A stretch of 61,944 nt of DNA from a virus: positions 1-61,944 of the IMG/VR virus record IMGVR_UViG_3300036768_001294. One strand, written 5' to 3'. The position numbers and the translations under genes were made by a program. The notes below the pieces were generated by a model. The model was not told the DNA's origin. It searched no databases and was given only the letters and a program-made list of their open reading frames with translations. Shown in pieces: positions 27,476 through 58,871 of this stretch (its first letter is position 1; every line of letters starts with the position of its first letter).

Positions 27476-27487
27476 GGAAGAAAGCCA

Positions 27488-28438: not shown

Positions 28439-29442
28439 TGACGGTTAGAGCTTTTACAAATCTTAGTGTCAGTAATAGCCTCACCGGACAAGCTGGAAGC
28501 CTTATTGACATACTCGATGCTTGTCTTGTCAGTGGTGCCGGTTGGACCAAAGCGTTTTCTGGCACGAATAAAGCTGTATATCGGGCTCCACAGGGTCAGC
28601 AATTCTATCTTCGCGTTGACGACACCGGGCCAGGGGCTCATGGAGGACGTGAAGCCAGAGTTCGCGGTTTCGAGTCAATGACCGATGTCGATACAGGCAC
28701 AAATCCATTTCCCACTGTTGCTCAGAAAGCCAATGGACTATTTGTTCGTAAGTCAGCAACTGCCGATACCACAGTTCGCTCATGGAAGGTCTTTGTGGAT
28801 GAACGCACATTTTATATGTTTATACAAACTGGTGACATTGCCGGCACCTATTTTGGTTGGGCATTTGGTGAGATCTATTCTTTCAAGACAAACGACCCTG
28901 GACGAACGATTCTCATTGCTAGGCCCAATGAAGCCAATACGAGCGGTTATGCTGGAGATGAGCCATTTGCCTATGCTATCGTGAAGCCTTCAAATCTGTC
29001 CCAACCAGCCCACTACCTCGCTAGAGCTGTTGGTGGAGGTGCTGGAGCAAAAGCTTGTGGAAAGATCCAGGCTGGTCTCACTTCTTCAAAAGACCTCGAT
29101 AATCAAGTGACCGAGGCCCTACCGATTATTGGTTATTTGGATCAACCTCCGACCACCAGTCATCGATGGAAGCTTGCAAGCTTACGAGTAATCGAAGATG
29201 ATGGCTCTGGAAACATGGTCATTCGCGGTCGGCTTCGCGGACTCATGCAAGTCTGTCATCATCCAGCGTACGCACAAACCATCCTCATAGACAATGCAAT
29301 ATTTTCAGGTCAAGGAAATCTTGCCAATCGGGCGTTCCAGACAGTTTTGGTATTGGGACGAGCAGCATTTGACTCAACGGGCAAAATCGCTTCTGGCAGC
29401 GCTGCCGCCGTTGAAATCACAGATTGGGAAGTCTCATCATGA
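28438..29442 (+). CDS. Fibre paralogue, family B copy 3
   Basis: 334 residues from ATG 28438, which overlaps the previous TGA; a TTG at 28435 is less likely. Blocks: 'TGQAGSLIDILDACLVSGAGWTKAFSGTNKAVYR', 'RGFESMTDVDTGTNPFPTVAQKANGLFVRKSATADTTVRSW', 'GWAFGEIYSF' and 'RGRLRGLMQVCHHP'. It lacks the 'NGYG' insertion before GWTK and ends VEITDWEVSS, so it is the most divergent copy at both ends. Segment 170-260 is again variable. Confidence 0.7.
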   Translation: MTVRAFTNLSVSNSLTGQAGSLIDILDACLVSGAGWTKAFSGTNKAVYRAPQGQQFYLRVDDTGPGAHGGREARVRGFESMTDVDTGTNPFPTVAQKANGLFVRKSATADTTVRSWKVFVDERTFYMFIQTGDIAGTYFGWAFGEIYSFKTNDPGRTILIARPNEANTSGYAGDEPFAYAIVKPSNLSQPAHYLARAVGGGAGAKACGKIQAGLTSSKDLDNQVTEALPIIGYLDQPPTTSHRWKLASLRVIEDDGSGNMVIRGRLRGLMQVCHHPAYAQTILIDNAIFSGQGNLANRAFQTVLVLGRAAFDSTGKIASGSAAAVEITDWEVSS

Positions 29443-30404
29443 CTGTAAGACTGTACCAGTCTACAGATACAAGCGCTCCATCACTCACAGGAGAAAATGG
29501 ATCGCTTATTACTGTACTTGATGCTTGCCTTGTCAACGGCTACGGAACAAAAACTGCTGCGGGGTGGACCAAAGCTTTCAGCGGAACAAACAAGGCTGCA
29601 TATCGCATGGGTTTGGGGCTCCAGAACTATGTAAGAGTTTACGATGATGGCTCATCCGGAGATGGGCGCCAAGCACTTACACGCGGATTTGAGACCATGA
29701 GCGATGTCGATAACGGTCTCCTGCCTTTTCCAACAGTCCAACAACGATTGCAAGGAATCTTCATTCTCAAATCCACGACAGCAGATAGTACAGCGCGCCC
29801 GTGGAAGATCTTAGCCGATGAACGCACCATCTATATGTTTACTAAGCCGGATGGCTCGACATTTTGGTCAGGCTGGATGTATGGCGAAATTAATTCTTTT
29901 GTTAGTGGTGATCTAGGTCGATCTTCCATCGTTGGAAGAATTGCTTCGATGTCGAATACACCAGCCGATGGAGAATGGCTTGATCGTTACACTCATCTCT
30001 TAGGCTTCTCAGTTGATGGTCTCTCATCTTTTCATTACATGGCACGCCCTGTAGATTACACAAAGACTGGATCAGTAGAAGGCGGCCAAGGTGGTGACCT
30101 GGAAATCCTCAAAGCTGGTACTGTGAGAGACCCTGGCATTTCCCGCCCCAATCCCGCCGACAATCGTACATATCTCTCCCGCATTTATGCATTCTCATTA
30201 GCCGTAGGCGGATCGAGAGGATCAATTCGCGGTTACTTGAGGGGCCTTTGGCAGTATTGTCATCCAAGCAGCACGGTCACGGATGGAGACGTACTAACCG
30301 GTGCCGGATCATTAGCCGGTCGATCATTTTTGATTCTTAAGCCAACGGGAAATTCAATCGTATATTGTCTTGAAACATCAAACACTTGGGACACATCTAG
30401 CTAA
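29439..30404 (+). CDS. Fibre paralogue, family B copy 4
   Basis: 321 residues from ATG 29439 (four-base overlap with copy 3). Blocks: 'YQSTDTSAPSLTGENGSLITVLDACLVNGYGTKTAAGWTKAFSGTNKAAYR', 'TRGFETMSDVDNGLLPFPTVQQRLQGIFILKSTTADSTARPW', 'GWMYGEINSF' and 'RGYLRGLWQYCHP', ending ETSNTWDTSS. 'NGYG.K.AAGWTKAFSGTN' is nearly identical to copy 1, suggesting conversion between copies 1 and 4. It ends the late fibre block. Confidence 0.7.
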   Translation: MTVRLYQSTDTSAPSLTGENGSLITVLDACLVNGYGTKTAAGWTKAFSGTNKAAYRMGLGLQNYVRVYDDGSSGDGRQALTRGFETMSDVDNGLLPFPTVQQRLQGIFILKSTTADSTARPWKILADERTIYMFTKPDGSTFWSGWMYGEINSFVSGDLGRSSIVGRIASMSNTPADGEWLDRYTHLLGFSVDGLSSFHYMARPVDYTKTGSVEGGQGGDLEILKAGTVRDPGISRPNPADNRTYLSRIYAFSLAVGGSRGSIRGYLRGLWQYCHPSSTVTDGDVLTGAGSLAGRSFLILKPTGNSIVYCLETSNTWDTSS

Positions 30405-30835: not shown

Positions 30836-31582
30836 ATGGATATTCCAGAAGACGAAGTTTGGATACCAACAGGAGAAAAGGGTCGTCCGCCCAAATTTTC
30901 TCCCAAGTATGGCTTAGAACATCGGGCCCTCGCTTATGAAGCATTCTTAAAAGGGGCGAATTGGACAGATTGCGCGAGGGCTTTTGCCCATCATGATCCT
31001 GCAAAAACTGGACGCATGCTCGTCAAAAAATGGGCAAAAGAAGATGGGTGGCGGCGTTCTATCAAGGCTGATCAGCAGTATAAGATGAAGATCGAACAGA
31101 GAATCACGACTGATCCCGTTCGAATCTCAAGAGAGATTGATATACTTTGCTTGAAAATGCAGCAAGTTGCAGAAAATTATATCGAAGGATTCTTTGAGGT
31201 CGATGATGAAGGGCAGCAGAAAGTTGTCATCGACGCAGCATTCAAAACCAGAGATTTTGCTGATATGGCTGCCGCATTGCGGATGATTCACGAGACCAGA
31301 ATCAAGATCCGAAAAGCCACCGAGGAAGTCAATAAGACAAATAAACAGGGTGGCGGGAAAGATTTCATCTCATTCATGAAGGAAATTGGTAAAGAGAAGA
31401 TGGCCGAGCGGAATGCCCTCGTGAAAATAGAAACTTCGCATATCAACAAGGAATCATGGGATGCCTACAAAGCGCGCAGACAAAAAGCTGACCGCGAAAA
31501 TTCGGAAGCTTCCGAAGAAGACGATGCGGGAGAATCCGAAGACACGTCTTATTCGCGAACCACCTATCCCGAGATTACATAG
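30836..31582 (+). CDS. terS: Terminase small subunit
   Basis: 248 residues, directly before and overlapping the large terminase gene. The N-terminal region 'GLEHRALAYEAFLKGANWTDCARAFAHHDPAKTGRMLVKKWAKEDGWRRSI' looks like a helix-turn-helix DNA-recognition domain of terminase small subunits. The middle is helical (oligomerisation), and the end is strongly acidic (NSEASEEDDAGESEDTSY), as is common for subunit contact. It would recognise the packaging site. Assignment rests on position and domain pattern. Confidence 0.65.
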   Translation: MDIPEDEVWIPTGEKGRPPKFSPKYGLEHRALAYEAFLKGANWTDCARAFAHHDPAKTGRMLVKKWAKEDGWRRSIKADQQYKMKIEQRITTDPVRISREIDILCLKMQQVAENYIEGFFEVDDEGQQKVVIDAAFKTRDFADMAAALRMIHETRIKIRKATEEVNKTNKQGGGKDFISFMKEIGKEKMAERNALVKIETSHINKESWDAYKARRQKADRENSEASEEDDAGESEDTSYSRTTYPEIT

Positions 31583-33203
31583 GACGCACAAAGATATCTG
31601 GAACTTTATCACCGATGAACAAGTAACTCCAGATGCAGCATATGGCGAGCTTAAGCAAATCTTCAAACGCTACTACGATGATCCTGTGCGATTCGTTACC
31701 GACACTCTTGCACCGGTTGCCTACACTGGAAGACTTGGACCAGATCCCTGGCAGTGCGATGTCTTAGAAGCCCTCCTCGAACATCGTCTCGTAGCCGTAA
31801 AATCCGCCCATGGTGTCGGCAAAACCAGCTGCTGCGTGTTTGCTGCATATTGGTTTCTCACAACTCGATATCTTTCCAAAGTCCCCATCATCGCCCCCAC
31901 CTTTGGCAAGCAGATCAAAGCCATGATCTTTGCCGAGATGCATTTGTGGCGGAAGCGCTCCTTGCTGCGCGATATCTATACCAGCAATCAGACCAAAATC
32001 GGCATTGTAGGCGCAGAGATGGAGTGGTTTGCTGAGGGCGTTGCGGCTGAGGAACCCGATAAAGTTGAAGGCTTCCATGCCCCTGGTGGCGTCTTTTATA
32101 TCCTTGACGAAGCCAAAGGCATTAAGCACAAGATTTGGGATGCTGCAAGAGGCGCACTCACCGGCACAGAAGATCGCATGCTAGCCGTATCCACTCCGCC
32201 TCTCGCTCCCGTTGGCGAGTTTGTCAGAGTCTTCACCCATTTGCGAACCACCTGGAAGACCTTTTCCATTGGTCCCACACCGCGTCAATCTAAGGAATGG
32301 CGTCAAGAGCGTGAGCGAGAATGGCCAAAGGGATCGCCAGAGTATGTTTCTAAAATCTTGGGAGAAATTCCCACATCTGCAACAGATCGTACCATCATTC
32401 CGCTCAATCTCATCGAAGCCGCCATGAAACGTCAGCCGACAGCAGAGATGTTGAAAGGGCCGTCGCGGATTGGCATGGATGTGGCGCGTTATGGGCAAGA
32501 CTCAACCGTTTTAGCCTTCCTACAAGGCAAGGCAGTAACCAGGCTTGAAACATTTTCCAAGCAAGATACGGCCACAAGTGCAAAGATCCTCGAAGAGGCA
32601 CTGCCGTATTATGATAGCGCACAGATCGATGAAGTCGCCGTTGGTGCAGGAGTCATCGATCCCCTATCTCATCATCCTGAGTTGAAAAAGAAGATCATTC
32701 CCGTCCGCGCCAACGATGCTTCACCAGAGCCAGAGCGGTATCATAATCTGGCGACATGGATGTGGTTTAAATTTTTGGAGTGGCTTGAGGCTGGAGGCAT
32801 ATTGCCATACGATGATGAACTCTGCTCTCAGTTAGCCTCAAGAGAGTACGAGTGGCATTACCAGTACGGAAGGATGAGCCGGCGCCTCACCTCCAAATCA
32901 AAATTAGCCACTTCCGGCAAATCACCGGATAAAGCCGAAGCCGTCATTCTCGCTGTCGTTCAAGTACCAAGAGCAATGGCTGTGATTCTTGGTGATAAAG
33001 ATATGAAAGAAGAACAAGAGAGTCTTAGGAGTCTCGAAGAGAAAGCTCAATCCATCCGTCGATTAAGATCACAAGAAAAAGAAGCAGTTGATGAAGCACC
33101 AGAAGATCGACGGCTTGATCGTTTGGGAATCCATAGTCATCATCGTAAACAACAATTCTTTTCGAGGGAAAAATCAATTGGATTTTGGAGACGAAAGCCT
33201 TGA
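31461..33203 (+). CDS. terL: Terminase large subunit
   Basis: 580 residues. ATG 31461 has AAGGA seven bases upstream; an ATG at 31524 is an alternative. The ATPase half has Walker A 'SAHGVGKTS' at residues 115-123, Walker B 'VFYILDEA' ending at D216/E217, and coupling motif 'LAVSTPP'. The nuclease half has 'RIGMDVARYGQDSTVLAFLQG' (first catalytic Asp, D340), 'DEVAVGAGVIDPL' and 'DKAEAVILAV'. It packages and cuts phage DNA at the portal. It overlaps the small subunit by 122 bases. Confidence 0.92.
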   Translation: MPTKRADKKLTAKIRKLPKKTMRENPKTRLIREPPIPRLHRTHKDIWNFITDEQVTPDAAYGELKQIFKRYYDDPVRFVTDTLAPVAYTGRLGPDPWQCDVLEALLEHRLVAVKSAHGVGKTSCCVFAAYWFLTTRYLSKVPIIAPTFGKQIKAMIFAEMHLWRKRSLLRDIYTSNQTKIGIVGAEMEWFAEGVAAEEPDKVEGFHAPGGVFYILDEAKGIKHKIWDAARGALTGTEDRMLAVSTPPLAPVGEFVRVFTHLRTTWKTFSIGPTPRQSKEWRQEREREWPKGSPEYVSKILGEIPTSATDRTIIPLNLIEAAMKRQPTAEMLKGPSRIGMDVARYGQDSTVLAFLQGKAVTRLETFSKQDTATSAKILEEALPYYDSAQIDEVAVGAGVIDPLSHHPELKKKIIPVRANDASPEPERYHNLATWMWFKFLEWLEAGGILPYDDELCSQLASREYEWHYQYGRMSRRLTSKSKLATSGKSPDKAEAVILAVVQVPRAMAVILGDKDMKEEQESLRSLEEKAQSIRRLRSQEKEAVDEAPEDRRLDRLGIHSHHRKQQFFSREKSIGFWRRKP

Positions 33204-36373: not shown

Positions 36374-36964
36374 TTACGCCTCCTCTAAGAGATTCGAACC
36401 TTCCGCATCACGCGGAGCTTCCATCATGGCATCGCCTTCCTGACCATCATCATAGTGGCCTTCCTTGATTTTGGCAAAGAACTCCACGCCATTCTTGTCC
36501 CGCGCCGTGACTAACCAGTCAAATGTGACAAAAGGGCGGCTCTTTAAAAAGCTGGATTGCTCGATCTTCCGCAGAATCTCCTCCCAGTCTCGACGCTCCG
36601 GCATCAGCTTCAGAGCCCGACGAATCGCCCGCCGTCGTCCGGGACTAATCACGGTCACGCGCTTGCGCTCATCTTGAACCCAGCTATTCCAGAGATCCAC
36701 GAGGTTTTGGACATTATCGGAAAATCGACGTGATGCCAAGTGGTGATGCCGAGCCGCCTGTTCCGGATAAGAGAGGAGGCTAGGAACATCATCATCAAGG
36801 AAAAGCTCATAGCGCGAATCAATCTTGGCAAGATCCCGAAGCGAGACAAGCGCTGCAATCGCCTTAGAATTCCGGACAATCACAATGGGCTTGCCAATCT
36901 CCTGAATAGAATCCAGCAACTTCTTCACATTAATCGACAATTCAGAAGCCGTGATTTGTTGCAT
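36374..36964 (-). CDS. Phd/YefM-type DNA-binding domain fused to a replisome-organiser domain
   Basis: 196 residues. Residues 1-50 'MQQITASELSINVKKLLDSIQEIGKPIVIVRNSKAIAALVSLRDLAKI' fit the Phd/YefM antitoxin fold ('ITASE.R.N....LD.V.E.GEPI.I.R..K..A.LVSLED'). Residues 88-175 'NLVDLWNSW ... VISPGRRRAIRRALKLMPERRDWEEILRKIEQSSFLKSRPFVTFDWLVTARDKNGVEFFAKIKEGHYDD' match the C-terminal domain of phage replication initiators, which usually reads 'FDWLL....NF.KILEG.YDD'. No toxin gene is adjacent. It probably binds the repeat region upstream and recruits the loader. Confidence 0.6.
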   Translation of the reverse strand: MQQITASELSINVKKLLDSIQEIGKPIVIVRNSKAIAALVSLRDLAKIDSRYELFLDDDVPSLLSYPEQAARHHHLASRRFSDNVQNLVDLWNSWVQDERKRVTVISPGRRRAIRRALKLMPERRDWEEILRKIEQSSFLKSRPFVTFDWLVTARDKNGVEFFAKIKEGHYDDGQEGDAMMEAPRDAEGSNLLEEA

Positions 36965-37283
36965 CGTCCTGCTTTCTCCTAATTTTCAGATTGTTGCGAA
37001 AACGTTTCACCAAGACCAACCATCCAGCTGCCTATGATATAGCATCAAGCTAGGAACAGGTCAAGAGCGAATTCTGAATGCGATGAAAAAAATCTGACAC
37101 CCGTCTTTCCACGACGAACCTCCAATCTTTTTCCATATGTTGTTCCACAAAACCCATCCCACCCTTCTTTCCACCTTCCGCCAATAAATCCAACCATATA
37201 GCATATTCAACTGCCTCACCACCGCCACACCACAAAAGAAAATTCCCTTCCCCCCACACCCCCTATCCCTTTTAAGAAAATAT

Positions 37284-37331
37284 GAGTGAGTGAGTGAGTG
37301 CTTGCTTTTTTTCTTTTTTTTTTTTTTTTTT
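37284..37331. repeat. GAGT microsatellite and poly-T tract
   Basis: Four GAGT units (37284-37300) are followed by CTTGC, seven T, one C and eighteen T ending at 37331. Such a tract is easily melted, and is also prone to sequencing slippage, so its exact length is uncertain. It could serve as an unwinding element. Confidence 0.7.
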
Positions 37332-37372
37332 AAGAAGAAAAGAAACCAGAAGCTTTTACTTCTAGACCTTAG

Positions 37373-37464
37373 ACTGGTAGCTCATCTGAAGATTACTGGC
37401 TTCTGATTCAGCCTACGACTCTATACTGGTAGCTCATCTAGGGTCCTTACGGCTTCTGATTCAG
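37373..37464. repeat. Two direct repeats of about 39 bases, period 52-53
   Basis: Each copy begins ACTGGTAGCTCATCT (37373 and 37425) and ends GGCTTCTGATTCAG (37398 and 37451), with unrelated bases between. The end block can fold as a short hairpin GGCT/AGCC in copy 1 and GGCT/AGTC in copy 2, the change keeping a G-T pair. This suggests an RNA or DNA structure under selection, though two copies are weak evidence. Confidence 0.65.
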
Positions 37465-37509
37465 TCTTTGTCTTTTCTTTTACCCCTCAAAGGTCAAAGC
37501 TTAAACCCT

Positions 37510-37695
37510 AGATACCGTTTGCTTTGAGAGATGTTAATCCTGCCTCCCTCCAATATCTTACCACGGTGGTACTACCTTAAAAGCCACAGACTCTAGGCTT
37601 CCCACCTATCCTTAGATACGGTTTGCTTTGAGAGATGTGATTCAAACCCCCTCCATGATTCTACCACGGTGGTACTACCTAAAGAACCACAGACT
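37510..37695. repeat. Two direct repeats, period about 104, each with a GTAC-centred dyad
   Basis: Copies start at 37510 and 37614 with AGATAC[C/G]GTTTGCTTTGAG, and contain TACCACGGTGGTACTACCT (37559 and 37662) and CCACAGACT. GGTGGTACTACC (37565-37576 and 37668-37679) is a near-perfect dyad around GTAC. Phd/YefM family proteins bind short palindromes of this kind, and such a domain is encoded about 600 bases away on the minus strand. Confidence 0.65.
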
Positions 37696-38025
37696 TTAAA
37701 CTCCGTTCCCATTAGCTTATATTGTGAGATAGCTAGACACATCCTGACTTTAAATCAAACAAGCTAAAACCAAGTCGGAAAGCTTAAGCTGCAAATTCTT
37801 TTTGTCTTTCAAAAAATTAAAAAAAATCCCCTCTCTCACGAATGCACGCACGCACTAGAATTTCTTTGAGGTAGGGGGGGCGCGGGGGGGAAGGAACTTT
37901 CTTTTCCAGCGCCACACCGCTCGCCAAAATCCATCATCAGCAGGTCCGCAAAGGCCTATGAAATCCGGAAATGGGCGTAAAACGCTCAGAATTGGTTTAT
38001 AGGGCGAGTTAAGGAGAGAGGGTAT

Positions 38026-38250
38026 ATGTTGGTAGCGGGTAGGAGAAAAAGTTTCAATAGCGGGCAAAAGAGAGGGGAAAAAGGGGTAAATTGGAAGTTG
38101 ATGCCAGACCCATTTTTAGGGTTGGAAGAAATTGACCCTCTCCCTATAAACCATCTCGGGGGGGTTGCTCAGGGGATACAAAAAATTTTGGGTATGGATT
38201 GGGGGATGGATGGTTGGGAAATATTCTGGCTGGCATTTGGCCGCCCCTGA
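38026..38250 (+). CDS. Possible small protein in the origin region
   Basis: 74 codons with GGAGAGAGGG before the ATG. The product is 'LVAGRRKSFNSGQKRGEKGVNWKLMPDPFLGLEEIDPLPINHLGGVAQGIQKILGMDWGMDGWEIFWLAFGRP'-like in parts: basic start, amphipathic end. A stretch of its DNA near 38157-38188 resembles 40224-40257 on the other side of the GC-rich block, so the similarity may be of DNA rather than protein. Weak candidate. Confidence 0.25.
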   Translation: MLVAGRRKSFNSGQKRGEKGVNWKLMPDPFLGLEEIDPLPINHLGGVAQGIQKILGMDWGMDGWEIFWLAFGRP

Positions 38251-38349
38251 TAGGGTCACGTAATCTGTCTCCACTCTTTATCGCTTCCCACTCTTGCTCT
38301 TCCCTCTTGCTCCCTACCAGCTCCCCCCTCCCTCATCATGAGCCCCTCA

Positions 38350-38405
38350 TTTTGAGGGTCAAATTTTGACCCTCTATTTCTGAACCTCACTTTCTGACCC
38401 TCCAC
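38350..38405. repeat. Left iteron array (14-bp units)
   Basis: Four adjacent 14-base units. TTTTGAGGGTCAAA (38350-38363) is in plus orientation. TTTTGACCCTCTAT, TTCTGAACCTCACT and TTCTGACCCTCCAC (38364-38405) are in minus orientation. The core is GAGGGTCA (one unit GAGGTTCA). The first two units form an inverted repeat with 10-base arms. A further GACCCTC lies at 38134-38140. Confidence 0.8.
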
Positions 38406-39252
38406 AATCGCCTCTCATTTTGATAGGCCACCCCCGTTTCGGAAGTGGGAGTTTTCGTGTTCCTTGTTGCCCAGAATTACAATATCGTAATCCGATAACA
38501 TAAGTGCTGGATTTATAAGGGGGCAATTTCAAAAAAAATAAAGTGCCGAGCTGCGAGGCCACATCTGGCGCGGGTTTGCAGGCTTTTTAGGCCCTAGACG
38601 AGGCAGCTGGTGGGGCTAGAGCGACCAGCGGTTAGGGCAAAGCCAGGCAGCATAGGCGATGACGTGGGGAAAGAGTTGCGGGCCCGCGCGGGGCCGGCGT
38701 CGGTGGGGCCGCGTCGCCCCCGGGCATGCTGCGTGCAGGGGGCGGGCGCGGGGGCCGCCGAGGGCGCGTGGGCGGTTGGGGGCGGGGCGAGCGCCTGGGC
38801 GGGCCTGGCGGCTGCGGCACGCATCATGCCCTGGGGGCTGCGGGCGTGGGGCGGCGGCACGGGCACGAGATAGCCGCTGGGCCGATCCGGCGGGTGAGTC
38901 CTGGGGCCGTGGGAGACCGCCAAGCCCCGCCAAACCTGGGCGTCCCGGGAGTGTGGCGGGAGTTGGCCATAGTTTCATCCCACCCACTCCCACCCTAAAC
39001 ACACCAGCTCAAGCGGCCAGAGCCGGCCAAGCCGCGTGGCTGGCCGGTTCCGTATACCCCCCGGGGGTATCGAGGCCAAGCCAGACGGGCGCGTCCGGGG
39101 GGTCTCACCAGCGTCTGGCAGTTTGGTGGTGAGAAGTGTCGGTGCGCCGGGGCGCTCGGGCATGCCGCTGGCAGGCGCTGCGCGCTGGCCAGCGTCACGC
39201 CCTTCGCTTCGGGGCGTGGAGGCGCCGGGCTGGTCTCCGCGGGCGTTGGGCT

Positions 39253-39366
39253 GGGCCGTGGGTCCACTCCGTGCTTCCCGCTGCACGGCGCGTCCCGCCC
39301 CTGGGAGCGGGTTGGTGGGGCCGTGGGTCTACCCAGTGCTTCTCGCCCAGCTCGGTGCCCCGCCCC
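39253..39366. repeat. Tandem repeat, period 65, in the GC-rich block
   Basis: GGGCCGTGGGTC begins copies at 39253 and 39318. Similarity runs about 49 bases to a shared CCCGCCCC end (39294-39301 and 39359-39366) and also covers roughly 14 bases before each start. The differences are mostly substitutions and short indels, as expected for an old duplication. Confidence 0.6.
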
Positions 39367-39402
39367 CCAATGGCTCGCTCTGCCTAGGGGCCTCTGCTGC
39401 TG

Positions 39403-39464
39403 GGGCCTGTTCAGGTTGCCACCCACGCTTCTTGGGCCTGTTCGGGTTGTCACGGCTGCTTCTT
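39403..39464. repeat. Tandem repeat, period 31, in the GC-rich block
   Basis: GGGCCTGTTC begins copies at 39403 and 39434. By eye 25 of 31 positions match, ending GCTTCTT in both. It lies directly before the AT-rich stretch 39516-39530 (TAAATATATATATCT) and the palindromes CTCCCCCTGGGGGAG (39485-39500 region) and TCCCCCGGGGGGA. Confidence 0.6.
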
Positions 39465-39946
39465 GGCTCCGCGCTATATACCTCCCTCCCCCTGGGGGAG
39501 TGAGAACCTGAACTAAATATATATATCTCCCCCGGGGGGATCTTTGTACCCCCCCTCCCCCCTCAGATATAGTTGTCTATTCCTCAAAATTTGAAGATTG
39601 CCTAATTGCAGCCACGTTTTCACCAACCCCCTAATTTTTCTGCACGAGGCTTGGGCGTTCCCCCGCTCGGGCGTGTGTGGTGGGCATAGGCGCTGGTGGC
39701 AAGCGGAGCCGTGGAGAAGGTCTGGCCCGAGCGGGGTCCGGCCACTCGGCAGAGCCCGAGCCCGCTTCGCGGTCTCGGCCCTACGGGCGAGTGTCCGTAA
39801 CGCCTCCGAACAAATCAGGGCAAGTTCCACTGCTGGGTGAGAAGAAGCGAAAGCAGGAGACGATCCCCCCTAAATCCCCCGCTGGGGGACTTTGGAGAAG
39901 AAAGAGCCCGCCCCCTCCCTGAGCTGAGGGGAATATACGCGGGGAA

Positions 39947-40079
39947 GCTCGCCGCAAGGGACCTCAGCCCTCCCGACATCCGGTTGTATTTGTCGAGCGC
40001 GCATAGGGGATGACACGCGCTCGACAAATCTCCACCGGAACGGTCGGGAGGGGCCGAGGGCTCCCCCGTTGCGGCGAGC
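39947..40079. other. Long imperfect stem-loop, about 133 bases
   Basis: Four helices stack in register: GCTCGCCGCAA (39947) with TTGCGGCGAGC (40069); GCCCTCCCGAC (39967) with GTCGGGAGGGGC (40043), one bulge; TCCGGT (39979) with ACCGGA (40033); and ATTTGTCGAGCGCG (39988) with CGCGCTCGACAAAT (40016), 14 perfect pairs. The loop is CATAGGGGATGACA. No T-run follows on either strand, so it is not a terminator. It ends 75 bases before the right iteron array. Confidence 0.85.
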
Positions 40080-40153
40080 GGTCAGTGGTGAAGGAACACA
40101 TACCGCATCACCCGCGTAAAGATCTCAGCTAAGGGGAGGGGGCGGGTTTAAAA

Positions 40154-40209
40154 CTGAGGGTCAACGTGTGAGGGTCAGATTTTGAGGGTCAGAAATTGAT
40201 AGTCAGCAG
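40154..40209. repeat. Right iteron array (14-bp units)
   Basis: Four head-to-tail units with exact 14-base period: CTGAGGGTCAACGT, GTGAGGGTCAGATT, TTGAGGGTCAGAAA and a decayed TTGATAGTCAGCAG. The core GAGGGTCA equals that of the left array, which points the opposite way, so the two arrays face outward/inward around the GC-rich block. Confidence 0.85.
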
Positions 40210-40359
40210 GGGGAAGAGTGAGGATTGGGGGAGTGGCTCAAGGGAGCCGAAAAAAAGTTTGTGTGAGATTAAAGGATCGTGAGGACATGCCGATAATTAA
40301 ATTAGGCAAATACTTTGTGTTGTCTGGGGGAATTGTTGGACAATTGGAGGGAGAAGGCC

Positions 40360-41550
40360 ATGTACCAAGACTTCTTAGCATTCAATCATTTCACGGCAAC
40401 AGGCGAGAAGACGTTTCGGGTTTACGAGGCGCTCATAGAGCATGAGCACTGCAATGCATTGGAGCCATTAGCCGATCACTTCCCAGAGCATCGGGAAGGA
40501 GAGGCGACAGAATTAGATCCACATTATCCCATTGATCCGGCCTTTCATCATCGCCCTGATTCATTTGAGCCCGCCCCATGCGGGCTTTCGACGAGGCAAC
40601 GGATTGACTGGGAGGACCTTCGTCTCAAAGGCGGCAGGGTGATAGGCCGCCATGAAGTAGTCTCGGACATGCCGTATTATCTTACAGCGCAGTTTATTGC
40701 TCGCAAATTGGGCTGCACCGTGGCCCAAGGCCAAATTCTATCGCGTCTGTGGCAGGCCTTAGATGCCACTGAATCCATGGTGCTGGAATTTGCAGAGCAG
40801 TTTCAATCTGCGGATATGGCGATTCAGTACTTTTCTGAGTTGGTAGAACAACTGCCAGTGATCGATCCGGACGATGCGCTTGAGCATCGTGTCGAGAGCG
40901 ATGTAGCCAATCTGTATCATGACATGACGGCGGAGAAGGCATTGTTGGCACTGGAGAAGGTCCCTAGTGCCGCAATGATTGCTCACAGACTCAATGTCTC
41001 GCTGGCAAGAGCTGGTGAGATTCGCGAAGAGTTGTTACTGGCGGTATCCGATCCGCAGGTAGGCATGATGGGCGAAGACGAAGAAGAAGATGAATTGGAA
41101 GAGGAAGAGGACGATGCCGATCTTCGGGCGTGTCTTTCTGAAGGTTGGCACTTGATGGATGACCTGGATGACAGGGACCCAGATTCCTGGCTGCAAAGCC
41201 AGCCCGCTCATATCCAGGTTATCATTTCTAAAGTCCGTCGGGCCACGACCTTGGCAGAGCTAGGTCGCTTGGCTCAGCGTCTATATGCTGAGCCCGAGCG
41301 TTGGTCCAAGGTGCAGTCCGGGGCGTTCTGGGCTGAGTATTCGGCCCGGAAGCAGCACATTCAGCATGATCTCATTCACCGCCATGCTCGCCTGCGGCGC
41401 GCCCTGGAGAAGCTGCGCACCCTCCATGGCGCCGATTTGGCCAGGGCGGGGAAGCGCTTGTTCCTCTTGCAGAGGGAGCAACCATCCTTCTATACCCAGG
41501 ATGGTTGGACCCTCTTATGGGGAGAATATAAGGCCCTGAAGTCTAGGTAA
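40360..41550 (+). CDS. Hypothetical protein next to the origin, acidic helical
   Basis: 396 residues from ATG 40360, with GGAGGGAG six bases upstream. Mostly helical. 'YLTAQFIARKLGCTVAQGQILSRLWQ' and 'SAAMIAHRLNVSLARAGEIREELLLAV' could be helix-turn-helix units. A long acidic run (GEDEEEDELEEEEDDAD) near residue 245 splits it, and the C-terminal third is rich in Leu, Arg and Ala. It begins 150 bases after the iterons and is the only gene of its transcription unit, ending at a triple terminator. It could be an origin-binding or partition-type protein; no family is recognised. Confidence 0.6.
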   Translation: MYQDFLAFNHFTATGEKTFRVYEALIEHEHCNALEPLADHFPEHREGEATELDPHYPIDPAFHHRPDSFEPAPCGLSTRQRIDWEDLRLKGGRVIGRHEVVSDMPYYLTAQFIARKLGCTVAQGQILSRLWQALDATESMVLEFAEQFQSADMAIQYFSELVEQLPVIDPDDALEHRVESDVANLYHDMTAEKALLALEKVPSAAMIAHRLNVSLARAGEIREELLLAVSDPQVGMMGEDEEEDELEEEEDDADLRACLSEGWHLMDDLDDRDPDSWLQSQPAHIQVIISKVRRATTLAELGRLAQRLYAEPERWSKVQSGAFWAEYSARKQHIQHDLIHRHARLRRALEKLRTLHGADLARAGKRLFLLQREQPSFYTQDGWTLLWGEYKALKSR

Positions 41551-41558
41551 CCGTCAAG

Positions 41559-41597
41559 GGACGGGGAAGATGTTTATCTTTCCCCGTCCTAATTTTT
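41559..41597 (+). terminator. Rho-independent terminator
   Basis: GGACGGGGAAGAT (41559-41571) pairs with ATCTTTCCCCGTCC (41576-41589), followed by TAATTTTT. It begins within a direct repeat AACCGTCAAGGGACGGG that recurs at 41608; the second copy forms another GGACGG/CCGTCC hairpin (41618-41647). Confidence 0.85.
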
Positions 41598-41663
41598 CGC
41601 GGAACAAAACCGTCAAGGGACGGGAAAGAAGTCTTCGGTGTCCGTCCTTGGCATAAAAATTGC

Positions 41664-41704
41664 GGGCAAAAAATCGCCTCGCTGCGCTCGGCGATTTTTT
41701 GCCC
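41664..41704. terminator. Bidirectional terminator with perfect 15-bp stem
   Basis: GGGCAAAAAATCGCC (41664-41678) pairs exactly with GGCGATTTTTTGCCC (41690-41704). The A/T blocks inside the stem give U-runs on either strand. It insulates the origin region from the early operon. Confidence 0.75.
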
Positions 41705-42467: not shown

Positions 42468-43235
42468 ATGGATTTTGGAATGTTAAACGCCATCAATCGT
42501 GCGAAACAGAGCTTAACAATGTCCGGCAATCGTGCCTATCAGCGCCATTCACTAATAGTTGAGCTTCATGGGTTGAACAAGATGCGGGTAAGTCGAAAGG
42601 AGATGATCACACGCCGGACAACGTCCTATCTTCCCAACGGCATGATCTTGGTGTACAACATGAAGTATAGTCTAGTTATCTCAGAACCATATTCCGACGC
42701 TGAGATGCCCGAACCTCCCACCCATGAGCTTTACCAGTGCGAGTGGGTTGGGGGAGAGGTCCCGAAGGGATTAGTGTCCTCCTTCATAAATGAGGCTATC
42801 GGCCTTGGATTGATCACGAAGGATGACTTCTCAAACCCCATTGTCAAGGTCTTTACATCCCGTGCCGTTGTAGGCTGGTGGCTTCCCGAAGAAGGATCAT
42901 ATCGGCAAGTCTATCGGCTGAAGGATGAGATCGACGAAGCCATAAGCTCGTCTGAAGTGTTGCTTTCTTCGAAGCGTGTTGAGATTCGAAGGGGGCAGGT
43001 GGAAATGAGCCGCCATTCATGGAATGCCTTCAATGAGACCATTAGCTTGATGGAGGGCGTGTCCCTGACGTTCGGTCGGGGGCGCGAAAGCAGGACGTTG
43101 CCGCCACTGGGATACTCGGCGGGCGAGTACAGTGTCGTTTGGTCGCTGAATGCTGATGGTCCCATCAGCATCGACGACCAGATGATTGATATCGGGACTG
43201 AGACAGTCCCGATCTTCGTGCTGTACCGTCTGTAA
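42468..43235 (+). CDS. Hypothetical early protein
   Basis: 255 residues, with AAAGGAG before the ATG. No signal peptide or TM. The sequence alternates beta and helical parts ('HSLIVELHGLNKMRVSRKEMITRRTTSYLPNGMILVYNMKYSLVIS', 'EVLLSSKRVEIRRGQVEMSRHSWNAFNETI'). Followed by a strong terminator. No recognisable family. Confidence 0.6.
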   Translation: MDFGMLNAINRAKQSLTMSGNRAYQRHSLIVELHGLNKMRVSRKEMITRRTTSYLPNGMILVYNMKYSLVISEPYSDAEMPEPPTHELYQCEWVGGEVPKGLVSSFINEAIGLGLITKDDFSNPIVKVFTSRAVVGWWLPEEGSYRQVYRLKDEIDEAISSSEVLLSSKRVEIRRGQVEMSRHSWNAFNETISLMEGVSLTFGRGRESRTLPPLGYSAGEYSVVWSLNADGPISIDDQMIDIGTETVPIFVLYRL

Positions 43236-43243
43236 CTTTTTGT

Positions 43244-43297
43244 GCCACGCCTTCCCTCTTCAATGAGACCAAAGTGAGGGGAGGGCGTGGCCTTTTT
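43244..43297 (+). terminator. Rho-independent terminator
   Basis: GCCACGCC-T-TCCCTC (from 43244) pairs with GAGGG-GA-GGGCGTGGC (to 43291), followed by five T. The loop is about 17 bases. Confidence 0.85.
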
Positions 43298-43318
43298 AAA
43301 AAAAATGGCCCAGAAGTT

Positions 43319-43431
43319 GCATCGACAATGCGACAATGCATCGACAATGCGACAATGCATCGACAATGCGTTAACAAGCATCAACAATGCGTTAACAAGC
43401 ATCAACAATGCGTCGACAATGTGTCGACAAT
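43319..43431. repeat. Short tandem repeats with core GCATCGACAATGCG
   Basis: Five units of 19, 19, 21, 21 and 22 bases begin at 43319, 43338, 43357, 43378 and 43399, each GCATC[G/A]ACAATGCG plus GACAAT or TTAACAA, followed by a half unit GTGTCGACAAT. They lie between a terminator and the gene at 43442. Single copies of GCATCGACAATG occur at 44203 and 48367, each just before a gene. Confidence 0.8.
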
Positions 43432-43441
43432 GGAGGGTATC

Positions 43442-43732
43442 ATGGAGGTTTGGATGGTTGCTGAATCGCATATAGACGGCTATTATGGACAATCTTTTAC
43501 TAACCCTCTCCTCTTTCAAAACGCCGAAAGGGCGATGGCTTGGATTAGAGAGGTTAGGAAAAGATATCAGTTATCATTTGCGCTCATGATGCGTGATCTT
43601 CCCGAGGCAACGCGCACAATTAAGGACTGGCCCCGCCCGGAAGATCTCCAGGATGTGAGCCTCATTGAGTTTACATTCTCAGGTGAAACGACTACGAATC
43701 ACGTCATGATGAGATTACCTGTGGGAGAATAG
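43442..43732 (+). CDS. Hypothetical small protein
   Basis: ATG 43442 has GGAGGG just upstream; ATG 43454 is an alternative. 96 residues: 'VWMVAESHIDGYYGQSFTNPLLFQNAERAMAWIREVRKRYQLSFALMMRDLPEATRTIKDW', a compact alpha/beta look. The open frame continues back through the tandem repeats, but that part is repeat-encoded and unlikely to be translated. First gene after the repeat block. Confidence 0.55.
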   Translation: MEVWMVAESHIDGYYGQSFTNPLLFQNAERAMAWIREVRKRYQLSFALMMRDLPEATRTIKDWPRPEDLQDVSLIEFTFSGETTTNHVMMRLPVGE

Positions 43733-43734
43733 GA

Positions 43735-44217
43735 GTGTATACATTTACCAGGGTTCTGGGCCTCTTCCGCGGCTCTGCAAAGAGGCGCATGCTAGGCCCA
43801 GAGCCAGGTGGAAAGTTCTGGGGTATTGACCCCTTTCCATGGGGTCAACCCGATTCGGGGAAGAAGACTATCTATCTAGATGAGGAGGCCTTCTTCCGCC
43901 GACATGATAGAGTGTGGCTTGGTATTCCCAATGTTGGCGGGCTTATCTGGAAGCCTATCCAGAGTCCCCATGAGTTAGATCAGTATAATTTTAAATTTGT
44001 GGATGAAGTGAATGGTTTGGGCGAAACAGTAATAATCGTCCGCCCATTTCTCCCACAATTATATGCCATCAAACGGGGCTATCGCTATTCTGCGCCCCGT
44101 TTGATGCGCTGTGATGAATGTGGGCATCACGTTGATGCAATCAAACAGCATCAGCTTGCCCACTGCGATGACTGCTGGTGGGCATGCAACATGTGCCTGG
44201 GTGCATCGACAATGTGA
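43735..44217 (+). CDS. Protein with C-terminal zinc ribbon
   Basis: GTG start two bases after the preceding stop, with GGAGAATAGGAG upstream. 160 residues. The C-terminal 45 residues carry 'MRCDECGHHVDA...LAHCDDCWWACNMCLG', three CxxC pairs with His, a treble zinc site. The N-terminal part 'WLGIPNVGGLIWKPIQ' is beta-like. Possibly nucleic-acid binding. Its last codons overlap a copy of the GCATCGACAATG repeat. Confidence 0.6.
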   Translation: MYTFTRVLGLFRGSAKRRMLGPEPGGKFWGIDPFPWGQPDSGKKTIYLDEEAFFRRHDRVWLGIPNVGGLIWKPIQSPHELDQYNFKFVDEVNGLGETVIIVRPFLPQLYAIKRGYRYSAPRLMRCDECGHHVDAIKQHQLAHCDDCWWACNMCLGASTM

Positions 44218-44233
44218 GAATGAAGGAGAAAAT

Positions 44234-44653
44234 ATGCTTATTAATTTGACCAATCATCCCAGCGCAACATGGTCTTCCGAGCAGCGGGAGGCTGCTATCT
44301 CCCGCTACGGCGAAATCGTGGATGTCCAATTTCCATACATCTCGCCGACCGCTAGCCGGTCAGATGTGGCTAAGCTGGCACAAGAGTATGTCAATAGATG
44401 CCGTTCTCTTTTACCCGATCCATACCGGCATGCCCCAACATGCCAGCTAGATCCCTGTGATTGCCCAGACGATGCTATCCATCTGATGGGCGAAATTTCA
44501 TTCGTGCTCTTATTCGCCCGCGCCTGGGGTGGCGTGGGCGATGATGACTCTCTAGCTCCAATCGTTGTTTCCACTACAGAGCGAGTAGTGGAAGACCTTG
44601 GGGGAGGGCAGAAAAAGGCTACCTTCAAGTTTATTTCTTTCCGAGAACTCTGA
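44234..44653 (+). CDS. 'LINLTNHPS' family protein of unknown function
   Basis: ATG 44234 has AAGGAG seven bases upstream. 139 residues: 'LINLTNHPSATWSSEQREAAISRYGEIVDVQFPYISPTAS', 'IHLMGEISFVLLFAR' and 'VVSTTERVVEDLGGGQKKATFKFISFREL'. I know this pattern from small conserved proteins in phages and bacteria with a Rossmann-like alternation, function unknown. An insertion with 'CQLDPCDCPDD' is unusual. The STTER and MGE blocks look functional. Confidence 0.6.
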   Translation: MLINLTNHPSATWSSEQREAAISRYGEIVDVQFPYISPTASRSDVAKLAQEYVNRCRSLLPDPYRHAPTCQLDPCDCPDDAIHLMGEISFVLLFARAWGGVGDDDSLAPIVVSTTERVVEDLGGGQKKATFKFISFREL

Positions 44654-44664
44654 GAGGTGGAGAC

Positions 44665-44898
44665 ATGTATACGGTCTATAATGATGTTGGTGGTATAATC
44701 CATCGAGGTTGCTCCTTAGAGCGTGCCATGCAGGTTGCTATCAACGATGATACGGCCGAGCCATATATTCATTCGGCCAGAGGTAAGCGGCCGGTCGTTC
44801 TTGACCAGAGAGGACAGCCTCATCTCGGAAATTATGGTGAGTCGCTTGATGACTTTCGTGACCGCCTATATGCGACCGACCAGGCATCATATTTCTGA
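44665..44898 (+). CDS. 'ARGKRP' family protein, short version
   Basis: 77 residues, with GGTGGAG upstream. 'MYTVYNDVGGIIHRGCSLERAMQVAI...IHSARGKRPVVLDQRGQPHLGNYGESLDDFRDRLY' is a clear paralogue of the N-terminal part of the gene at 57393 ('MYLVYNIAGGLIYKGKSLQKAMDFAM...ITARGKRPVAKYHGIPRLGEFGEDYDSFLDRLE'). Function unknown. The pair brackets the early operon. Confidence 0.6.
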   Translation: MYTVYNDVGGIIHRGCSLERAMQVAINDDTAEPYIHSARGKRPVVLDQRGQPHLGNYGESLDDFRDRLYATDQASYF

Positions 44899-44934
44899 GG
44901 CATGCCTGTTTCATGGCTACAAGGGAAGACCACG

Positions 44935-45405
44935 ATGGCAATCGAGAACCCACCTGATACGCCGATTTCAGAGTGGCTCTCCGGCATCGACAATCTGCTC
45001 GCTGAGATCGAGGCCGGGGATGCTGTGCCAGCGACGGTGCCGGTGATGCTGCCCCCAATTATTTGCTGGGGGTGTCACGGCGAGATTATTAACCCTCCTG
45101 CATGGGTTGTTGATCTCATGCGGGAGGCCGAAGATGCTGGACTCTATGAGTCTATTGCCGAGATTAACCATCGAGGCACGCGCGGCGTCAACTGCTATGG
45201 CTACGACGAGGGGCGTGGCCTAGCAGTGATTCAGGTGCAATATGTTTTCGGCCGTTATCGGCACCTGCGTAAGAGCTACTTTTTGATTGGGCGTGCAGAG
45301 CAGGGACGCATCTTTGTGCGCCCCGTTGGGTCACCCAGGCGCCTTAAGAAAATTCCAAAGCGGCCCGAGGCGATTGTCCAGGCCGTGCTCTGCCGCATCC
45401 AGTGA
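44935..45405 (+). CDS. Hypothetical protein
   Basis: ATG 44935 is chosen because AAGGGAAG is six bases upstream; ATG 44902 is too close to its candidate site. 156 residues: Pro-rich start (ENPPDTPISEWL), 'IICWGCHGEII' with a CxxC, a helical region, then 'GRGLAVIQVQYVFGRYRHLRKSYFLIGRAEQGRIFVRPV' and a basic C-terminus. It may bind nucleic acid. No family recognised. Confidence 0.55.
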   Translation: MAIENPPDTPISEWLSGIDNLLAEIEAGDAVPATVPVMLPPIICWGCHGEIINPPAWVVDLMREAEDAGLYESIAEINHRGTRGVNCYGYDEGRGLAVIQVQYVFGRYRHLRKSYFLIGRAEQGRIFVRPVGSPRRLKKIPKRPEAIVQAVLCRIQ

Positions 45406-45429
45406 TGGGAGGCTATAGAGGAGAAAAAT

Positions 45430-45948
45430 ATGAAGGTAATCACCTCAAGCGAGGAAATCTTAACCACCACCTGGAGCCGTCATCCTTCATCCCAGAGCTA
45501 CTGGGTGAAGCGGCTCAAGGCTATCTGGGATGAGTGGATGCCAGATCGCCTTATCTTTGATGGCGATGGCCGTAAGGTTGGGCCTCGTGATATTGTCTAC
45601 CGCCCTGCCACCGCGGGGCGCTGGGGGCGCTCGTCTGCTGTGTACGTTGGGCGAGCGCTCAAGCGAGAGCGTGCGGCCCGTGAGGCAGCCCAGCAGGAAA
45701 AGCGTGAGGCTGAGGCGCTTGCGCCTTATGAGGATGTACTTCATGAGGTGCTAAGTGCCTGTGGGGCCGAGGGATGCTTTGCTGTCAGTCTCCCTCCTGC
45801 ATGGATGCGGGTAGGTGGTGGCATCATGGTGCATGAACGGCTCCATGATGCCGGCGGGAGCCTAGGGTATCGCGTTGAAAGTCCTGCTGCGCTCCGAGAG
45901 CACCTACTAAGAGCTATTCCCGGCCACCGGCAAATCTATCACCAGTAA
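45430..45948 (+). CDS. Hypothetical protein with charged coiled coil
   Basis: 172 residues, with AGAGGAG upstream. 'ALKRERAAREAAQQEKREAEALAPYEDVLHEVLSACG' forms a charged helix in the middle. The N-terminal part 'TTTWSRHPSSQSYWVKRLKAIWDEWMPDRLIFDGDGRKVGPRDIVYRPATAGRWGRSSAVYVGRAL' looks compact. The following 150 bases (45949-46100) hold only two very short frames (25 and 16 codons) and no clear gene. Confidence 0.55.
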   Translation: MKVITSSEEILTTTWSRHPSSQSYWVKRLKAIWDEWMPDRLIFDGDGRKVGPRDIVYRPATAGRWGRSSAVYVGRALKRERAAREAAQQEKREAEALAPYEDVLHEVLSACGAEGCFAVSLPPAWMRVGGGIMVHERLHDAGGSLGYRVESPAALREHLLRAIPGHRQIYHQ

Positions 45949-48442: not shown

Positions 48443-48832
48443 ATGCAGTATCGATGGTCAAGTCCCCAACAGTGGTTTCTAGAAAAAGCGGAATTCTATG
48501 CAGATATCGGAGACAGAAAAAGTCTGATGTCGATGCTAAGACGTTCTCTTTCAGCCATTGATGGAGATTTGCTTCTGAATATCTTTCAAGATGAAGCCGA
48601 GGCTGATGGATATTTTATTCGGCTTGATCTGAAGATTTGCGATGATTGTGGCGAGGAAAAGCCACCAGAGGAATTTGCAGATCCAGACAAGCATCGGGTG
48701 CTCTATCGGGAGCAAAACATTTGTTTGGTCTGCCATCATGATTGGCTCGTTTGGAGTGGCGAGAGGTGCAACACTTGCCATGGGGAAGGAGATGATAATG
48801 GACGAGATTCGTCCACGACCAACGATCTATGA
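48443..48832 (+). CDS. Zinc-binding protein
   Basis: ATG 48443 has GGAGGG upstream; earlier starts at 48419 or the 61-codon frame from 48376 lack a good site. 129 residues: helical start 'WFLEKAEFYADIGDRKSLMSMLRRSLSAIDG', then 'LKICDDCGEEKPPEEFADPDKHRVLYREQNICLVCHHDWL' and 'ERCNTCHGEG', three CxxC pairs. 'CxxCGxxKPxxEF...R...CxxCH' is frequent in phage zinc-finger and HNH-like proteins, but no HNH catalytic set follows. Confidence 0.6.
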   Translation: MQYRWSSPQQWFLEKAEFYADIGDRKSLMSMLRRSLSAIDGDLLLNIFQDEAEADGYFIRLDLKICDDCGEEKPPEEFADPDKHRVLYREQNICLVCHHDWLVWSGERCNTCHGEGDDNGRDSSTTNDL

Positions 48833-49043
48833 AGTAGCTCGTCGCTATGCCGCTTGTCTGTATGCGTTGTCAGATGTTTTGGGAATTACACCTCTTGATA
48901 TGTTGACCAGGCATCGAGAGGTTGTCACAGCAACATTCATGCAGGCCTCACGGGAGGGTATCCGCATTTCCAGTAGCGTCAATTTGCCAAAACTCACTAA
49001 ACTTTATACGCCACCAGACTTTAGAAACAAAGAGGAGAACTAA
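48798..49043 (+). CDS. Hypothetical small protein (HTH-like)
   Basis: ATG 48798 with GGAG six bases upstream; it overlaps the previous gene. 81 residues: 'TIYEVARRYAACLYALSDVLGITPLDMLTRHREVVTATFMQASREGI'. The pattern 'L.D.LGI.P.DM...HREVV...F..A' resembles a small helical domain near DnaA/Roi-type HTHs. Function unknown. Confidence 0.5.
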   Translation: MDEIRPRPTIYEVARRYAACLYALSDVLGITPLDMLTRHREVVTATFMQASREGIRISSSVNLPKLTKLYTPPDFRNKEEN

Positions 49044-49044
49044 T

Positions 49045-49233
49045 ATGGTTGAAAGTATTATGTTGGGCCATGGTGATGTGAAAATCAAGATTCAACACTC
49101 TGAGCACCTTCAAGATTATGTTATAATCGAATTTCGACAGTCTCCATCCGTGAGACCGTTATGTCTATATCTGTATCTCACGCGCGACCAGCTTAAAGAA
49201 CTCGCAGAAGCTGCAAAGGAGGTGGTGGGATGA
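49045..49233 (+). CDS. Hypothetical small protein
   Basis: 62 residues, with GAGGAG seven bases upstream. A beta-rich N-terminal half ('DVKIKIQHSEHLQDYVIIEFRQ', 'CLYLYLTRDQLKELAEAAKEVV') ends in a helix. It overlaps the next gene by four bases. No family recognised. Confidence 0.55.
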   Translation: MVESIMLGHGDVKIKIQHSEHLQDYVIIEFRQSPSVRPLCLYLYLTRDQLKELAEAAKEVVG

Positions 49234-49592
49234 GTGAATTACCCGTAGCTAGACTCTGGATGCCGCAGAAGGATCTGATGCTCGCTCAAAAAGAAGCGAG
49301 CGAAATGGAAGAGCAATATCGGCTTTTTCTCCAACTCTCTCAGGCAGCCACACCGAATTATGCCAAGCACTTTGAACGAGAATTAGCGATAGCTCGGCGT
49401 CAGCAAATGGATAGCAATTCTTTCGTTGTTTCCTTGCGTCGCCGAGGCTATGAGTGGGCAATACGTGAATCGAAGGTCAAACGAGAAATCATCGATGAAG
49501 AAAAAGCCGCTGAGCAAGAAGCGGAACTGTGTGAACCAATAGAATCTTTTGGAAGGAACCACAAGACATGGTCGAGCCGTTGGATCAGGTAG
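49230..49592 (+). CDS. Hypothetical helical protein
   Basis: 120 residues, with AGGAGG upstream. Long charged helices ('KEASEMEEQYRLFLQLSQAATPNYAKHFERELAIARRQQMD', 'ESKVKREIIDEEKAAEQEAELCEP') dominate. No motif. Four-base overlap with the preceding gene and 25 bases with the next show translational coupling. Confidence 0.5.
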   Translation: MSELPVARLWMPQKDLMLAQKEASEMEEQYRLFLQLSQAATPNYAKHFERELAIARRQQMDSNSFVVSLRRRGYEWAIRESKVKREIIDEEKAAEQEAELCEPIESFGRNHKTWSSRWIR

Positions 49593-49768
49593 ATATTTTC
49601 GATGAAGGCGAAATCGAATCTCGTCGCTGCCCATTTGCGAATCAAATCGCCTGCTCATGGCGGGGCGATTCATTTAAGGCAGTGCTTCAGCACTGCCGAG
49701 AACGCCATCCAGACGGTACGCCTTCATTTCGTTATCAACCACCAAGATCCGATCCTGCATTAGACTAA
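49568..49768 (+). CDS. Small zinc-finger-like protein
   Basis: 66 residues. 'CPFANQIACSWRGDSFKAVLQHCRERHPD' has a C-x8-C...H-C-x3-H arrangement resembling a single C2H2-type finger. A similar arrangement ('MCPYC...HREMYAHCRIHHP') occurs in the protein at 55358. Possibly DNA-binding. Confidence 0.5.
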   Translation: MVEPLDQVDIFDEGEIESRRCPFANQIACSWRGDSFKAVLQHCRERHPDGTPSFRYQPPRSDPALD

Positions 49769-49784
49769 TCGAGGTCTCGTCACA

Positions 49785-49916
49785 ATGCTATGGTTTGGTC
49801 CATTCGATTTCCATGTGCCGCATCGTCATTACTGCGTTGAACATGAGCATATTTGGTGGTGCACTCGGAGTAACTGCAAGGAGTGGATCTTAATCTGTTC
49901 CTTACACAATGCATAG
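49785..49916 (+). CDS. Very small Cys/His protein
   Basis: 43 residues from ATG 49785, with GAGG about ten bases upstream. 'HRHYCVEHEHIWWCTRSNCKEWILICSLH' holds four Cys and five His in 29 residues, fitting a small zinc site. It stands alone between two genes in an otherwise empty 177-base gap, which supports its reality. Confidence 0.45.
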   Translation: MLWFGPFDFHVPHRHYCVEHEHIWWCTRSNCKEWILICSLHNA

Positions 49917-49945
49917 TCTTGATAATCTAGTTGGAGGTGGGTTAG

Positions 49946-51451: not shown

Positions 51452-51452
51452 G

Positions 51453-51899: not shown

Positions 51900-51916
51900 A
51901 GTTTTGGGGGTTAGGT

Positions 51917-52303: not shown

Positions 52304-52313
52304 CTTGGCGTTG

Positions 52314-53060: not shown

Positions 53061-53089
53061 AGCTTTTACAGTTCGCTCCTCATCTGAGT

Positions 53090-53115
53090 GTAGCTCGCGC
53101 AACGGCGCGAGAAGC
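53090..53115. promoter_or_regulatory. Hairpin in the leader of the minus-strand gene
   Basis: GTAGCT-CGCGC-AACG-GCGCG-AG-AAGCTAC forms a stem with the perfect inner helix CTCGCGC/GCGCGAG and a four-base loop. It lies between the promoter and the start of the minus-strand gene and has no T-run, so it may control translation or mRNA stability. Confidence 0.55.
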
Positions 53116-53158
53116 TACGCGGCTTTAGCCGAAGTAGAGTATTACAAGTATGTTGTCA

Positions 53159-53186: not shown

Positions 53187-53225
53187 GCATCGTCTCCTAA
53201 AAGGATTAGTAAAGGAGGGATTTTT

Positions 53226-53636: not shown

Positions 53637-53667
53637 AAATCTTTTGAAATTCTTACAGGAGATTGGC

Positions 53668-58867: not shown

Positions 58868-58871
58868 TCAG

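Follow-up and report, generated by a model that had tools for sequence, protein, structure and literature searches.

What kind of element occupies a long stretch of phage DNA that is rich in GC, carries no genes and can be folded on paper into many stems? The locus belongs to the IMG/VR virus record IMGVR_UViG_3300036768_001294, which was analysed over its whole length of 61,944 nt (here, the window). The initial annotation had placed a hairpin-packed block at 38590-40085 and had suggested that it might be either a new large structured phage RNA or a cruciform-forming replication origin. As described below, the region looks more like a DNA control region, concerned with replication or with genome ends, than like a proven giant RNA.

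The gene content of the window includes TerL (31461-33203), three tail-assembly paralogues, a RecE/YqaJ-type exonuclease, SSB and DnaB, and the virus is therefore a tailed phage. It is probably virulent, and domain searches of the record revealed no integrase, resolvase, reverse transcriptase, telomere resolvase or member of the transposase families searched for. Three scanned proteins encoded at 26504-30404, within the run of tail genes, come from a single tail-assembly PHROG family (9600/9998), and a run of sugar-nucleotide and glycosyltransferase genes, accompanied by a radical-SAM/B12 protein, lies at 9665-21681, inside the structural region. The phage is unclassified and has few relatives in public data: its TerL matches PHROG 2 and 5902, and its best identity to any sequence found is 34-36%. 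The TerL query had no match in genome contigs, and an epimerase query retrieved from them only matches of 47-49%, mostly from methanogen genomes, which is insufficient for naming a host.

A single near relative was recovered, a 14-kb contig (L003, the same as L048) with about 77-87% DNA identity over positions 48539-61942 of the window, the gene-free region not being covered. This contig came from the viral contigs through the DnaB and AAA protein queries only; the queries made there with the first gene to the right of the gap, the initiator, TerL, a TerL alignment, the iteron pattern and the dCTP deaminase returned no other near relative, and the remaining viral loci have no more than one or two genes in common with the window, at low identity. 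The window is linear and lacks end repeats over its 61,944 bases. Since L003 runs on past the right end of the window into further genes, which by a reading of the sequence appear to encode a small KH-type protein and a portal-like protein, this end is not the end of the genome.

The gene-free gap extends from 36965 to about 40359, between the leftward genes for a predicted initiator and a dCTP deaminase and the rightward early genes, the gene orientation around it being divergent. Up to the first in-frame start (40315), it forms the longest ORF-free gap of the record, with 3350 bp (36965-40314). The reading frame that begins at that start (40315-41550) gave no Pfam or PHROG match and no relative in phages; read from an ATG at 40360, with a ribosome-binding-like GGAGGGAGAAGG, the first rightward gene (40360-41550, plus strand) would encode 396 residues. 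Just downstream, at 41549-41704, two 25-bp copies of the AACCGTCAAGGGACGGG type, 59 bp apart, are followed by a 15-bp perfect stem (GGGCAAAAAATCGCC/GGCGATTTTTTGCCC), and these are probably stacked terminators. The ORFs found inside the block were considered and rejected as genes, and are taken as chance products of GC-rich DNA, with low codon scores, no Pfam match and no codon-position GC pattern. The block is thus without genes, as had been claimed. The limits first given to it (38590-40085) enclose a real feature but are too narrow, because the gap is wider and the bracketing repeat arrays fall outside them.

The composition of this DNA is equally unusual. The best 1-kb window of the record (38543-39542) reaches 71.6% GC, compared with a contig mean of 47.7%, and the earlier count of 104 G/C in 120 bases was, if anything, conservative, the densest 120-bp window holding 106 (38678-38797). 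The maximal 1-kb GC jump over the mean amounts to 0.239. A comparison set of 92 viral loci, each 8 kb or longer and retrieved by matches to dCTP deaminase, TerL, DnaB or AAA, has a mean of 0.060 (sd 0.016) and a largest value of 0.117, less than half the jump of the window. Given this selection by gene matches and the shorter length of the loci, the set serves as a guide and not as a formal test. A composition change so extreme, with simple repeats nearby (a T-run, GTGAGTGAGTGAGTG and ACGCACGCAC), is what could be left by an assembly chimera, that is, by a GC-rich block from another organism joined in error. However, two false joins would be required, the block is flanked by matched 14-bp arrays, with just 5 bp between the right-hand array and a long fold-back, and this fold-back is imperfect (74% over its core), whereas amplification chimeras have perfect inverted repeats; a chimera is accordingly scarcely probable. 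Searches with the block DNA gave no match in phage or plasmid DNA, the sole match there being 51 bp inside the next gene, and no homologue of the block was found in the phage, plasmid or viral contig collections searched.

Whether the block is structured beyond what its composition dictates is central to the proposal of a large RNA. Because GC-rich DNA folds strongly regardless of the order of its bases, dinucleotide shuffles were taken as the control. The block contains six perfect stems of at least 8 bp, versus 3.1 in the shuffles, which is not a significant excess (p 0.09), although a 14-bp and a 12-bp stem are individually unexpected. The latter, a 12-bp perfect stem on the plus strand (39661-39736), belongs to the nested structure reported at 39661-39793, which did not withstand the analysis: the surrounding region (39640-39820) folds like its shuffles (z -0.12). 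Most of the hairpin packing is expected from the GC content alone. What does exceed the shuffles is an imperfect fold-back of 246 nt (39904-40149) and a modest cluster at 38950-39150, so the impression of a hairpin-packed block holds for these two elements and not for the number of stems. The cluster, which is made up of modest fold-backs on the plus strand and includes TATACCCCCCGGGGGTATC, has a z of about -3 to -4 (-3.5 at 38950-39149, -4.4 at 39000-39199 and, against local shuffles, -3.0 at 38995-39140). Self-BLAST additionally detected an imperfect inverted repeat, GGGCATGCTGCGTGC / GCACGCATCATGCCC, at 38717-38836 (plus strand), with a local alignment score of 19 versus 10.4 (sd 1.8) in shuffles.

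The fold-back is the sole strongly significant structure of the block, with z values of -11.2 with RNA parameters, -11.2 with DNA parameters and -13.6 for the opposite strand (RNA), and it ranked among the top two segments in a folding scan of the whole window (15 shuffles per segment). Its apex is a 14-bp stem (39988-40029) with a 14-nt loop, its right arm bears a side hairpin and its core is 74% matched. The nest previously marked at 39947-40079 is indeed significant, but it represents only the inner part of this larger structure. The fold-back contains four G-U pairs on either strand, and this equality gives no hint of selection for an RNA made from one strand. Two further identities were rejected: a resolution site for a hairpin telomere of the N15 kind, as there is no ResT-TelK domain in the possibly incomplete record and the centre of the fold-back (40002-40015) is 14 nt of unpaired sequence, and a retron, as the record has no RVT_1 domain.

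These results bear directly on the possibility that the block is a new large structured non-coding RNA, comparable to GOLLD or ROOL and possibly ending in the 246-nt fold-back. Like those RNAs, it is a long gene-free phage locus with predicted structure, it is GC-rich and, taken whole, it folds better than locally composed shuffles (z -8.1 on the plus strand, -5.6 on the minus strand). However, that signal comes from 39904-40149: without the fold-back, the remainder (38590-39903) has a z of just -1.6 (plus) and -2.9 (minus) against 24 such shuffles, and the block does not fold well beyond its composition over its whole length. The comparison with Rfam, proposed when the locus was first described, yielded no family at gathering score, the covariance models for GOLLD and ROOL included; the matches below threshold (E 0.04-5) were mostly to microRNA families, which are of an unrelated type, and they fell on both strands, several of them on the fold-back. 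Neither the fold-back's lack of strand preference, nor the lack of a promoter excess, of a clear 3' terminator and of a T-run after the fold-back, fits an RNA gene well. GOLLD and ROOL are often located near tRNA islands (PMC12286853), whereas no tRNA was found in the window. On balance, a large RNA of this kind is unlikely.

The divergence of the genes around the gap could also be served by a transcription barrier between the two operons, in which the fold-back and a palindrome at 38354-38374 would act mainly as bidirectional terminators or as mRNA-stability elements. The palindrome does resemble a terminator, having a stem and a short T-rich tail, but the fold-back is not followed by a T-run on the plus strand and only by a mixed TCTTTCTTCT on the minus strand, and 246 nt of fold-back plus 1 kb of GC-rich DNA far exceed the needs of a terminator. 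We consider such a barrier improbable.

A second clue was derived from the flanks of the block, where two repeat arrays missed by the initial annotation were found. The left array (38353-38403, minus strand) is made of three tandem copies of the 14-bp unit TGAGGGTCARAWWT, at 38362, 38376 and 38390 (0-2 mismatches), and an extra plus-strand copy at 38353 forms with it a near-palindrome of 21 bp. The right array (40155-40196, plus strand) has three tandem copies of the same unit, at 40155 (3 mismatches), 40169 and 40183, and it is this array that starts 5 bp from the fold-back. The arrays are therefore mutually inverted and, 1.75 kb apart, bracket the block, and, with up to two mismatches allowed, just one further site occurs in the 61.9 kb. 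When the left flank was compared with the reverse complement of the right one, the match scored 27, against a mean of 11.3 (sd 1.9, maximum 19) in 300 shuffles, while the similarity beyond the arrays was not significant, either outward (12 versus 10.1, sd 1.6) or inward (9 versus 8.4, sd 1.2).

Inverted arrays at both sides of a sharp composition change might be regarded as the ends of a non-autonomous mobile element or a horizontally acquired insert, the GC-rich DNA between them being foreign filler and the arrays serving, by analogy with Mu- or Tn7-type ends, as multiple binding sites. Against this, the inverted similarity stops at the arrays, no target-site duplication is seen by eye, the record contains no rve domain, Y1 transposase, or tyrosine or serine recombinase, and no second copy was detected in the record, in phages or in plasmids. 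A mobile element is thus distinctly unlikely.

The left edge of the gap offered the third set of observations, likewise missed before: a predicted initiator gene with AT-rich DNA beside it and, close by, long tandem repeats. The gene at 36374-36964 (minus strand), whose start codon is the very edge of the gap, encodes a protein of 196 residues predicted from PHROG and Pfam profiles to be a replication initiator or helicase loader. It matches a replication initiation protein family (PHROG 19658, E 4.6e-12), a DnaD-like helicase loader family (PHROG 10469, 6.7e-9) and Pfam PhdYeFM_antitox (1.8e-8), in an arrangement that fuses a Phd/YefM-like N-terminus to a C-terminus resembling O-like and DnaD-like replication initiators. 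AlphaFold models of this protein and of the product of the first rightward gene were of very low confidence. Inside the gap, the AT-rich stretch at 37271-37370, which includes a long T run, ranks fifth in a nearest-neighbour scan for the least stable 100-bp regions of the record. It is followed by two copies of a direct repeat of about 52 bp (37365-37467, plus strand; repeat families D10 and D13) and by two copies of a 103-bp tandem repeat that contains ACCACGGTGGT (37506-37698, plus strand; TRF 37509-37695, period 103, 83% matches; families D2 and D6).

The gap is placed between the late end of the map, with TerL at 31.5-33.2 kb, and the early small genes, SSB and DnaB, a position in which fixed genome ends or origins are usual. 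Together with the initiator gene, the arrays and the AT-rich stretch, this location points to cis-acting DNA. We tentatively propose, at a little less than an even chance, that the gap serves the phage as control DNA acting in cis, most likely as a replication origin and/or a site at which concatemers are processed into genome ends. The proposal starts from observed features, namely the absence of genes, the GC-rich block, the fold-back, the paired arrays, whose flank match is far above shuffles, and the adjacent initiator gene recognised by profile matches. It agrees with the presence of low-stability DNA and long tandem repeats beside the initiator gene, with a fold-back that scores equally with DNA and RNA parameters, on both strands and free of G-U strand bias, and with a boundary position in a record whose right end is not the genome end. 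We infer a mechanism in which the short repeats would be bound by a phage protein, either the initiator whose gene lies at the left edge (36374-36964) or another one; a protein bridge over 1.75 kb might pair the inverted 14-bp arrays; opening would take place in the AT-rich stretch (37.27-37.37 kb); and the GC-rich block with its 246-nt fold-back, if formed in DNA, could hold, nick or block the replication or packaging machinery.

Comparison with known systems shows partial likeness. As would be expected of an iteron-type origin, a putative initiator gene, identified by profile match, adjoins the gap, although the conjunction of this gene with AT-rich DNA and repeats is suggestive only as a sign of an origin. 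In phage lambda, the origin consists of four iterons inside the O gene, next to an AT-rich tract (PMC7466680). The locus likewise combines an AT-rich stretch and repeat arrays with an O-like initiator gene, but the arrays are outside the gene, at least about 1.4 kb away from it and at least about 1.0 kb away from the AT-rich stretch, and form two inverted groups with 1.75 kb of GC-rich DNA between them. The terminal repeat of phage T7 is flanked by short-repeat arrays. For the T7 concatemer junction, a hairpin intermediate is cited in PMC4281155 and is named in the title of Chung et al. 1990. The locus shares with the T7 junction the flanking short-repeat arrays, a strong DNA fold-back and a position that separates the late from the early end of the map, but its arrays are inverted and not direct, and the record is linear without end repeats.

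A third comparison raises an explanation of its own. In phage T5, the injection stop signal is described as containing many repeats, inverted repeats and palindromic motifs (PMC13250531), and the gap could similarly be a DNA-entry control site whose repeats and palindromes would pause genome entry after the first genes. The gene-free DNA, rich in such elements and adjoining early genes, would suit that role; however, the T5 signal has DnaA boxes, whereas none of the form TTWTNCACA is present in the gap, and an entry-control site is highly improbable.

The absence of this box from the gap also counts against a DNA control region active in replication or packaging, as does the GC skew, which shows no genome-scale switch of the kind expected at a bidirectional origin and whose dip at 35-38 kb largely coincides with the leftward genes. 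Moreover, no homologue was found that would show conservation of any of its elements, and a GC-rich block is unlike classical origins, in which the AT-rich part matters. A further objection comes from a different repeat, TGCATCGACAATG, which recurs seven times at 43318-43432, three copies being exact, and occurs singly at 44202, 44983 and 48366, all on the plus strand. L003 carries an exact GCATCGACAATG at its position 1587, within the first part of its match to the AAA gene. The copies at 43.3-43.4 kb are a candidate for a second iteron or for a recombination repeat, and as iteron candidates they are equally good.

Should the gap function in cis in replication or packaging, its layout would be unusual, a long GC-rich domain with a fold-back being enclosed by inverted iteron-like arrays; should it be transcribed, the block would be a candidate for a new large phage RNA. 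A bolder formulation, which we consider decidedly unlikely, would posit a phage locus of a new kind: a structured GC-rich nucleic acid of 1.5 kb, either RNA or extruded DNA, with inverted protein-binding arrays, needed for replication or packaging and without a known relative. In any case, the 14-bp arrays and the 246-nt fold-back provide precise targets for binding, transcript and end-mapping tests.

Finally, several strongly folding segments were also detected at 42961-45840 (z -4 to -9, 15 shuffles each), among small genes without known families, and strong folding is therefore not unique to the block. These folds lie largely inside the small genes, and at least one of them (43240-43300) resembles an ordinary terminator.
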